Assembly (NCBI RefSeq): GCF_004363075.1
Contig: NZ_SNYN01000012.1
Span: forward strand, 1-64,000
From: Actinorugispora endophytica
Lineage (GTDB): Bacteria; Actinomycetota; Actinomycetes; Streptosporangiales; Streptosporangiaceae
Length of the DNA stretch: 64,000 bases
Reading direction: 5' to 3'
In this document: piece after piece, positions 21,226 to 23,868 of the stretch
Layout: each line of letters starts with the position of its first letter
Numbering within the stretch: position 1 is the stretch's first letter
Notes under the pieces: model-generated
The model's input: the letters and a program-made list of their open reading frames with translations, nothing else
Told to the model about the DNA's origin: nothing
Database searches by the model: none
Translations under genes and position numbers: made by a program

Positions 21226-21350
21226 CCCCTCACCCCCGGCAACCGAACCCCTCTTCAAGAACAGGGTTCAACCACACCAAACGGGGGAACTTCTCAGCCT
21301 CAACGAACGTATTCACCTACACACCCACCCATCACCAAAAGAGAGAGGCA

Positions 21351-21476
21351 ATGGACCCGTCCCGAAGTAGCGACAGCGTCCCCACCAGACGCTGCGCCCC
21401 CGACCTCGACGAACCCCCCTCACCTAGCCGCGCGCACACCGAGCCAGACCACTCCGAGGCGGTGTACGCGAAATGA
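21351..21476 (+). CDS. 41-residue leader ORF overlapping the CNNM gene
   Basis: ATG 21351 is preceded by AGAGAGG five bases upstream, and the frame runs 41 codons to a TGA at 21474-21476 that overlaps the ATG of the CNNM gene (21473) as ATGA. The peptide is hydrophilic, rich in Asp, Glu, Ser and Pro. It starts MDPSRSSD and contains DEPPSPS and TEPDHSE. Acidic/proline-rich leader peptides such as MgtL in enterobacteria control Mg2+ transporter genes by ribosome destabilisation at low Mg2+; the same idea would fit here because the coupled gene is CorC/CNNM-like. A 6-bp hairpin (GAACCC/GGGTTC, 21245-21269) lies further upstream. Function is inferred from layout only. Confidence 0.55.
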   Translation: MDPSRSSDSVPTRRCAPDLDEPPSPSRAHTEPDHSEAVYAK

Positions 21477-22858
21477 GCATCATCCTCAACATCCTCCTCG
21501 GAGTGGTGGTGGTCCTCCTGATCACCGCGGCGACCGGCTACTTCGTCGCCCAGGAATTCGGCTACATGGCGGTCGACCGCTCCCGCCTCAAAGCCCGCGC
21601 CGCCACCGGCGACACCGGGGCCAAACGCGCACTCGACATCACCAACCGGACCTCCTTCATGCTGTCCGGCGCCCAACTCGGCATCACCGTCACCGGACTG
21701 CTCGTCGGCTACATCGCCGAACCCATGATCGGCTCGGGAATCGGCGAACTCCTCGGCGGCGCCGGCGTCCCCACCGGCATCGGAGTGGCCACCGGAACCA
21801 TCCTGGCCCTCCTCTTCTCCACCGTCGTGCAGATGGTCTTCGGCGAGCTCTTCCCCAAGAACCTCGCCATCGCCCGCCCCGAACCCGTCGCCCGCTGGCT
21901 GGCCCTGTCCACCCGCATCTACCTGCGCGCGTTCGGCTGGCTCATCTGGCTCTTCGACCAGGCGGCCATCCTCCTGCTCAAGGCCATGCGCATCGAACCC
22001 GTCGAAGACGTCCAACACGCCGCGACCCCCCGCGACCTCGAACGCATCGTCGAGGAGTCCCGCGAGAGCGGCGACCTCCCCGCCGAACTCTCCACCCTCC
22101 TGGACCGCACCCTGGACTTCTACGAGCGCACGGCCGAACACGCCATGATCCCCCGACCCCAAGTCGCGTCCGTCGAAGCCGACGAACCCGTCAGCCGCGT
22201 CGTGGAACTCATGGCCACCGGCCACTCCCGGTTCCCCGTCCTGACCGACGGAGTCGACGCCATCGCCGGCGTCATCTGCCTGCGCGACGTACTCAACCTC
22301 GGCGAACACGACCTCGACACCATCCAGGTCGCCGACGTCGCCCGCGAAGCCGTCATGGTGCCCACCTCACTCCCGCTGTCGGGAGTCCTGGCCCAACTCC
22401 GCGACGCCCACGACGAGTTCGCCTGCGTCGTCGACGAGTACGGCGGACTCGCCGGAGTCATCACCACCGAGGACATCGCCGAGGAACTCGTCGGCGAGAT
22501 CGCCGACGAGCACGACCCCGAAGACGAGGGCGAGGCCCGCATCGGCGACGACGGCAACTGGCTCCTGCCCGGAGCCCTCCACGTCGACGAGGTCGAACGC
22601 CTCCTCGGACACGACCTCCCCGACGGCGACTACGAGACCATCGGCGGACTCGTCATCAGCCGGCTGCGACGCCTCCCCGAACCCGAGGACCGCGTCACCG
22701 TCGCCCTGCCACGCCACCCCGGAGCCCACGACGACGACCCCGACCGGGCCGTCACCCTCACCGTCGAGAACGTGGACCGCCACGTCCCCGAAACCGTGCG
22801 CCTCGAACTCCACGAAGCCGCCGACCACAACGGGACCCACACCGAGGTGACCGCATGA
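21473..22858 (+). CDS. CNNM/CorC (HlyC/CorC) family transporter, protein 1
   Basis: Membrane protein of 461 residues. The DUF21/CNNM transmembrane domain covers about 1-190, with TGYFVAQEFGYMAVDRSRLK and VFGELFPKNLAIARPEPVA as its hallmarks. Then come a CBS pair (about 215-340, with HAMIPRPQVASVEAD and DEYGGLAGVITTEDIAEELVGEI) and a C-terminal CorC_HlyC domain. The family is linked to Mg2+/Co2+ efflux or homeostasis. Its start overlaps a short leader ORF, and its stop overlaps the next gene by ATGA, so three frames are translationally coupled. This copy carries all three domains. Confidence 0.9.
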   Translation: MSIILNILLGVVVVLLITAATGYFVAQEFGYMAVDRSRLKARAATGDTGAKRALDITNRTSFMLSGAQLGITVTGLLVGYIAEPMIGSGIGELLGGAGVPTGIGVATGTILALLFSTVVQMVFGELFPKNLAIARPEPVARWLALSTRIYLRAFGWLIWLFDQAAILLLKAMRIEPVEDVQHAATPRDLERIVEESRESGDLPAELSTLLDRTLDFYERTAEHAMIPRPQVASVEADEPVSRVVELMATGHSRFPVLTDGVDAIAGVICLRDVLNLGEHDLDTIQVADVAREAVMVPTSLPLSGVLAQLRDAHDEFACVVDEYGGLAGVITTEDIAEELVGEIADEHDPEDEGEARIGDDGNWLLPGALHVDEVERLLGHDLPDGDYETIGGLVISRLRRLPEPEDRVTVALPRHPGAHDDDPDRAVTLTVENVDRHVPETVRLELHEAADHNGTHTEVTA

Positions 22859-23868
22859 GCGACCTGAACCCGTGGCTCGCCATGGGCATCTCCGCCCTCA
22901 TCATCGCCCTCAGCGCCTTCTTCGTCGCCATCGAGTTCGCCCTCGTGGCCGCACGCCGCTACCGGCTCGAAGAGGCCGCCGAGACCAGCGCTTCGGCCCG
23001 CGCCGCGCTCAAGAGCGCCCGCGACCTGTCACTGCTGCTCGCCGGCTCCCAGCTCGGCATCACGCTGTGCACCCTGGCACTGGGCGCGATCACCAAACCA
23101 GCCGTCCACCACCTGATCGACCCGCTGTTCCACGGCTGGCTGCCCGAAGCGGTGGCCTACGCCGCCTCCTTCGTGGTCGCCCTGGTGCTGGTCACCTTCC
23201 TGCACCTGGTCGTCGGCGAGATGGCCCCCAAGTCCTGGGCGATCTCCCACCCCGAGAAGTCCGCCACCATGCTGGCCATCCCCATGCGCGCGTTCATGTG
23301 GCTCACCCGCCCCGCGCTCGTGCTCCTCAACGGGATGGCCAACTGGTGCCTGCACCGCGTGGGTGTGGAGGCGGTCGACGAGGTCGCCTCCGGCCACGGA
23401 CCCGACGACCTGCGCGAACTCGTCGAGCACTCCGCCAAGGCGGGGTCCCTCGACCCGGAGCGCCGTGCCCAGCTCGCCACCGCCCTGGAGGTCAACTCCA
23501 GGCCGCTGCGCGAGATCGTCACCCCGAAGAACGAACTCGCCGGAGTCGGCCCCGACGCCTCCCTGGACGCCATCAAGCAGGCCGCGCGCGACAGCGGGCA
23601 CCTGCGCCTGGTCGTGGGCGACGACGAGCCCTTCGGAGTGCTGCACGTGCGCGACGCGCTCACCAGCGGCCCCAAGACCACAGCCGCCGAACTGATGCGC
23701 CCGGTCCTGACCCTGGACGCCACCACCCCCATCTACGCGGCGCTGAGCATCATGCGTGAGAGCCGCACCCACCTGGCACTGGTGGAGGACGAGGAGAACC
23801 TGGTGGGTCTGGTCACCATGCAGGACATGCTCGACCAGCTGCTCCTGGCGGGAACGAACACCGGGTAA
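22855..23868 (+). CDS. CNNM/CorC family transporter, protein 2 (lacks CorC_HlyC tail)
   Basis: Paralogue of 337 residues with the DUF21 membrane domain (about 1-185, including FFVAIEFALVAARRYRLEE and VVGEMAPKSWAISHPEKSA) and a CBS pair (about 205-330). It ends after the second CBS motif, LVGLVTMQDMLDQLL, so the C-terminal CorC_HlyC domain of its partner is missing. Paired long and short CNNM genes are common in actinobacteria and may form a heteromer. It overlaps the upstream gene by 4 nt and is followed by a perfect 15-bp hairpin. Confidence 0.88.
   Translation: MSDLNPWLAMGISALIIALSAFFVAIEFALVAARRYRLEEAAETSASARAALKSARDLSLLLAGSQLGITLCTLALGAITKPAVHHLIDPLFHGWLPEAVAYAASFVVALVLVTFLHLVVGEMAPKSWAISHPEKSATMLAIPMRAFMWLTRPALVLLNGMANWCLHRVGVEAVDEVASGHGPDDLRELVEHSAKAGSLDPERRAQLATALEVNSRPLREIVTPKNELAGVGPDASLDAIKQAARDSGHLRLVVGDDEPFGVLHVRDALTSGPKTTAAELMRPVLTLDATTPIYAALSIMRESRTHLALVEDEENLVGLVTMQDMLDQLLLAGTNTG

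Follow-up and report, generated by a model that had tools for sequence, protein, structure and literature searches.

The MgtL leader of the enterobacterial mgtA gene is a short ORF with acidic and proline residues early in its peptide, lying 5′ of a gene for a Mg2+ transporter. Its EPDP stretch destabilises ribosomes at low Mg2+, and in E. coli early acidic repeats, that of MgtL included, pause or destabilise ribosomes (portions of PMC11282234). In Salmonella, residues D2 and E5 of the MgtQ uORF of mgtB influence, by way of hairpins, how the next gene is translated (portions of PMC8092293). The YoaL leader of yoaE/mgpA overlaps its gene, is needed for the translation of the CorC-domain protein encoded there and has been hypothesised to raise it at high Mg2+; the relevant portions of the same 2025 paper call the control of Salmonella corC and mgpA unclear, report that both are induced by high Mg2+ and describe CorB homologues as Mg2+ efflux transporters (PMC12421838).

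A leader comparable to these was found in front of a CNNM/CorC-type transporter gene in the window, i.e., the 64,000-nucleotide stretch of the Actinorugispora endophytica contig NZ_SNYN01000012.1 analysed here. With MgtL it shares the short leader, the early acidic and proline residues and the place 5′ of a Mg2+ transporter gene. MgtL, however, works by Rho-dependent termination, and at low Mg2+ it turns on an importer, whereas the CNNM leader has a stop-start overlap 5′ of an exporter-type gene, which suggests a route other than Rho-dependent termination; no homology is claimed. The likeness to MgtQ lies in acidic residues of a uORF that affect, or here would affect, downstream translation, but MgtQ lies between mgtC and mgtB, serves an importer and uses alternative hairpins, and no stop-start overlap is described for it in the portions of the paper cited. 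YoaL/mgpA and the IRD start of CorC/YbeX, both enterobacterial, are similar as overlapping leaders of CorC-domain proteins; those proteins, unlike CNNM, are of TerC type or soluble and belong to another phylum, and they are likened by description, not by sequence. The M-box (RF00380) shares the principle of leader-level Mg2+ control, and its covariance model had no match in the window or the genome.

The leader and its locus

The first-pass annotation had claimed a 41-codon ORF joined by an ATGA overlap to a CNNM/CorC gene, and this arrangement is indeed present (Table 1), the TGA of the leader overlapping the ATG of the CNNM gene (21473). The product of the first CNNM gene matched solved CorB-like chains (7m1t/7m1u, E about 1e-26), as well as CorC structures, and is predicted to be a Mg2+ transporter of CNNM/CorB type, with substrate and direction taken from homologues. 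No Pfam match was obtained for the leader ORF, and a scan of the window with Rfam gave no match at gathering score. The genome's MgtE gene, two CorA genes and two further CNNM genes carry no leader of this kind. The tandem CNNM pair is unequal in its domains, the second protein having no CorC_HlyC match.

Table 1. Coordinates of the leader, the neighbouring genes and the elements discussed in the text
Feature	Position	Strand	Remarks
Promoter-like element of ECF/SigE type, GGAAC-N17-CGTA	21286–21311	+	Conserved in relatives; matches the C. glutamicum consensus
Ribosome-binding site AGAGAGAGG of the leader ORF	21340–21348	+	Only 2 nt 5′ of the leader ATG
Leader ORF	21351–21476	+	41 codons, MDPSRSSDSVPTRRCAPDLDEPPSPSRAHTEPDHSEAVYAK; ATG at 21351, TGA at 21474–21476
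CGA AGT (Arg5 Ser6)	21363–21368	+	Invariant in 55 long leaders; AGT is a class-wide signature codon
Stem I hairpin	21374–21394	+	Directly 3′ of the AGT codon
Acidic/Pro cluster codons DLDEPPS (codons 18–24)	21402–21422	+	Selected at the amino-acid level
Stem II, 21431–21441 paired with 21460–21470	21431–21470	+	Closes the region between GAGG (21456–21459) and the CNNM start
CNNM/CorC-type transporter gene	21473–22858	+	CNNM, CBS and CorC_HlyC domains
Second CNNM gene	22855–23868	+	CNNM and CBS domains; ATGA overlap with the first CNNM gene

Conservation among relatives

The 110 loci with relatives of the CNNM gene come from two sources: 60 related genomes, of which 59 had a match, and a genome collection, of whose 277 loci 80 were retained. 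An equivalent leader, with a Shine–Dalgarno (SD) sequence, a stop overlapping the CNNM start and an MD../MS..D pattern, was present at 89 of the 110 loci, 84 of them distinct (set 1); the selection pattern was M-D-[PSC] or M-S-x-x-D-[PS], which places the Asp there by construction, though not the AGT codon treated below. The 84 leaders start with GTG (57), ATG (24) or TTG (3), overlap the CNNM gene as ATGA (59) or GTGA (25) and are 16–61 codons long. A GAGAGAGG-like run lies 5′ of the leader start in nearly all Nocardiopsis-type relatives. The 21 loci outside set 1 include 10 with an ATGGAC start and a weak SD or a different stop, Pseudonocardia and Kibdelosporangium types among them.

Across the Actinomycetes, 186 of 296 genomes had a CNNM match with an E-value of at most 1e-70. 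At 74 of these wider loci (L144–L217), 60 leaders were chosen by eye (set 2), each with a stop overlapping the CNNM start codon; they comprise the types MSAVSDASSR, MSARSTDPSGHSPRP, MSVPDPWSTCPC, ..AEPSSSRPG, MDGSSCSTCA and the basic MRRAKRK.. and MRKKRPR.., the family labels of several of the genomes being guesses. An automatic choice at the same 74 loci returned 58 leaders, 42 of them with AGT (frame counts 53:7:0). A scan blind to the peptide, for an NTGA-overlapping ORF with SD and in-frame AGT, picked out 55 of the 74 CNNM genes as against 3 of 239 other ORFs at the same loci, and a lenient test, for NTGA at an in-frame NTG no more than 60 nt from the CNNM start, succeeded at all 74. In the upstream regions of CNNM operons in relatives, where the first-pass annotation had proposed to look for it, the ORF thus recurs, its start, frame and overlap kept, and it is almost certainly a conserved translated leader.

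A search of the open-licence literature returned no paper devoted to leader ORFs at CNNM genes of actinomycetes; the M. tuberculosis orthologue of the CNNM gene we take to be Rv1842c. A search of the main text gave no hit for Rv1842c in an M. tuberculosis paper (PMC10012870) and none for CNNM/CorC genes in an S. lividans paper (PMC12548453).

The acidic cluster and a possible role of Mg2+

Selection on the peptide was followed in the 55 long leaders, i.e., those of at least 40 codons, which are Nocardiopsis-like with a few from Pseudonocardiaceae. In their acidic/Pro columns, changes at codon positions 1, 2 and 3 stand at 33:147:4053, 65% of changes are synonymous compared with 22% expected, and swaps between D and E preserve acidity in the cluster columns (D38/E16, D48/E6, E45/D9). 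The leader tail, at 2290:2156:2155, shows no amino-acid selection. The acidic/Pro cluster (DEPPS) is therefore kept at the amino-acid level in the Nocardiopsis-like lineage. Among the motifs quoted by the first-pass annotation, MDPS and DEPPS are conserved and TEPDHSE falls in the variable tail; as for its “acidic/proline-rich” peptide, the first half of the description held, with an acidic residue fraction of 0.140 against 0.089 in dinucleotide shuffles and an enrichment over other frames as well, whereas the proline fraction (0.136) is below that of the dinucleotide shuffles (0.163) and reflects base composition only. A CGUC/GACG helix was considered as the cause of the acidic codons and rejected, the helix being lost when D changes to E.

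The cluster is a property of this lineage. An acidic repeat occurs within the first 30 residues of 54 of the 55 long leaders (15.7 in shuffles) and a dense acidic/Pro window in 53 (2.9 in shuffles), while such a window was found in none of 16 short MD leaders, none of 13 Streptosporangiaceae-type leaders and 5 of the 60 wider leaders; an acidic repeat of any kind is present in 4, 3 and 19 of these, respectively (shuffles 2.3, 2.5 and 10.3). The cluster is missing from the leaders of Pseudonocardia, Kibdelosporangium, Micromonosporaceae-like and Streptosporangiaceae-like genomes. Since the leaders of other families are short or basic and do without it, the cluster cannot be a general sensor. 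Leaders rich in Arg, Lys and Pro, still overlapping the CNNM start, were seen in Rhodococcus/Nocardia-like and some other relatives (L099, L104, L105, L107, L144, L147, L148, L150, L159).

The best reading, tentative and somewhat short of an even chance, is that of a translation-coupled regulatory leader of the CNNM operon, whose completion depends on Mg2+ via the acidic/Pro cluster. The candidate GGAAC-N17-CGT promoter would give an mRNA carrying the leader ORF; ribosomes completing the leader would end at the TGA within the CNNM start, unfold stem II and either initiate anew or let in a further ribosome, and CNNM output would track the number of ribosomes that complete the leader. The cluster, a few codons 5′ of stem II, would in the Nocardiopsis-like lineage tie completion to ribosome stability. 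At low Mg2+, ribosomes would pause or fall off at the cluster and CNNM would be low; with plentiful Mg2+ the leader would be completed and the exporter made. That the coupling controls CNNM output is very likely, although its strength is read from the arrangement, and since the CNNM gene has a GAGG-like SD of its own the coupling may be partial. SD strength as such did not separate the leader from the CNNM gene (duplex medians −6.6 and −5.3 kcal/mol), and in the window the CNNM gene scored better. Action of the acidic cluster by pausing or abortion of the ribosome, drop-off being presumed, is rather more probable than not.

Mg2+ itself is a possible signal, though less probable than not, and its part is deduced from the export of Mg2+ by CNNM homologues. 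Given that export, an operon that is on at high Mg2+ has the sensible sign; the low-Mg2+ response of the MgtL kind, to which the first-pass annotation had pointed, is turned around, in that coupling and an exporter would give expression at high and not at low Mg2+. The idea of a Mg2+-sensing leader keeps its conserved translated ORF, its ATGA overlap and its selected acidic/Pro cluster in this lineage and loses its generality, because a cluster bound to one lineage, with basic leaders elsewhere, counts against Mg2+ as the general signal.

The AGT codon and the alternatives

A second feature of the leaders is the rare Ser codon AGT, present in frame in 82 of the 84 set 1 leaders and 46 of the 60 set 2 leaders. 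Its position ranges from codon 4 to codon 31, yet it stays bound to the frame (94:9:0 in set 1, 59:7:2 in set 2), and it makes up 94 of 456 Ser codons in set 1 and 59 of 251 in set 2, as against 44 of 1753 in the CNNM genes. Of the 128 leaders with AGT, 125 have an acidic residue among the six residues that precede it, in set 1 partly by construction. The first paired base of a hairpin follows AGT or AGA at a median of 4 nt in the 135 leaders, out of 144, that have either codon, with a median fold-energy z of −1.6 in these 135 leaders; as the relatives are not independent, this and the further z-scores are overstated. Codon and hairpin together suggest an older, shared pausing device. By eye, AGT is often replaced by AGA, also rare, at L146, L149, L158, L199 and L214.

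These observations would be expected of a stall-to-open attenuator, the logic known from erm leaders, in which a pause at AGU (or at EPP in this lineage) holds a downstream hairpin open and exposes the CNNM start, the signal being translation stress and not Mg2+. Masking of the CNNM start is in fact strong in some compact leaders (z up to 7), though in the aggregate neither masking nor opening energy exceeds shuffles (median z 0.22 and 0.04; 28 of 103 above 1). In the window, the leader is predicted to form stem I, which follows AGT, and stem II, which precedes the CNNM start (z −2.3). Against the attenuator, AGT and the CNNM start have different hairpins beside them in this lineage, and some families use AGA or neither codon. 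We regard stalling of this kind as unlikely, if the most serious of the alternatives.

A plainer alternative holds that the leader only loads ribosomes onto an intrinsically poor CNNM start and that its peptide is irrelevant. The near-universal overlap, found at all 74 wider loci by the lenient test, and the tail free of amino-acid selection would agree with this, but it leaves unexplained the selection on the acidic cluster and the CGA AGT pair, which is invariant at all six bases, wobble included, in 55 of 55 long leaders and thus points to selection on the codon or the RNA at that site. Delivery as the sole function is accordingly quite improbable.

The base-level conservation of CGAAGT and its flanks might also betoken a structured RNA element, i.e., a riboswitch or protein site open in frame by chance, and consensus folds do contain stems I and II and the CGUC/GACG helix. 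Pairing in the stems reaches 97.1% and 99.6% in two sub-lineages, counted over 11 and 13 sequences with the exclusion of L031, whose stem I is shifted, and of leaders of greater or lesser length; covariation is weak, double changes occurring at 2 and 1 pairs only, hardly above shuffles. Several features argue against such an element and make it very unlikely: the start codon varies (A/G/T) at its first base only, the acidic cluster varies at wobble positions, GACG changes to GAGG or GAAG without compensation in CGTC, the window has no Rfam match at gathering score, and AGT keeps to the frame despite its variable distance from the start. A translated and conserved leader could also encode a small protein with a function of its own or a subunit co-produced with CNNM, but this is scarcely credible with lengths of 16–61 codons, a tail unselected as protein and no Pfam match.

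A candidate promoter element upstream

Upstream of the leaders, an element of the form GGAA[ACT]-N-CGT[TCA] was found in 75 of the 84 leaders of set 1 and 23 of the 60 of set 2, where shuffles gave about 3.8 and 2.0; the spacer was 17 in 74 of 102 matches. Promoters for C. glutamicum SigH/SigE are given as GGAAC[A/C/T]-N16-CGTT in portions of PMC8079986, with the same spacing as the candidate element of the leader. Transcription of the leader probably starts at the GGAAC-N17-CGT element, and the CNNM operon may be part of a regulon for envelope or thiol stress.

A broader proposal would be that CNNM leaders throughout the class sit under a SigE-type promoter and read the state of the ribosome by an acidic residue and a rare AGU directly preceding a hairpin, and that the Nocardiopsis lineage gained a Mg2+-sensitive cluster, a mirror image of MgtL that turns an exporter on; as a whole this is doubtful. 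If true, nascent-chain cation sensing would extend from enterobacterial importers to actinomycete exporters. The control of CNNM/CorC cation exporters in bacteria is largely open, and a class-wide leader family with defined residues and a near-invariant codon makes the question testable.

Distribution beyond the CNNM relatives

The core DNA motif of the leader occurs at a single place in this genome and was absent from viral contigs. Among the 296 genomes it was found at 20 places in 19 genomes, 16 of them just 5′ of a CNNM gene; the remaining 4 carry two mismatches, and a reversed control gave 3 matches in the same listing. In other classes of the phylum, 20 loci inspected by eye did not have the leader arrangement as a rule. 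One of these classes contains, at L227, an overlapping ORF (MSDDHKPSMDRSLRAVHHPPSPR) with an in-frame AGT and, by eye, no SD, a possible older origin of the leader device.
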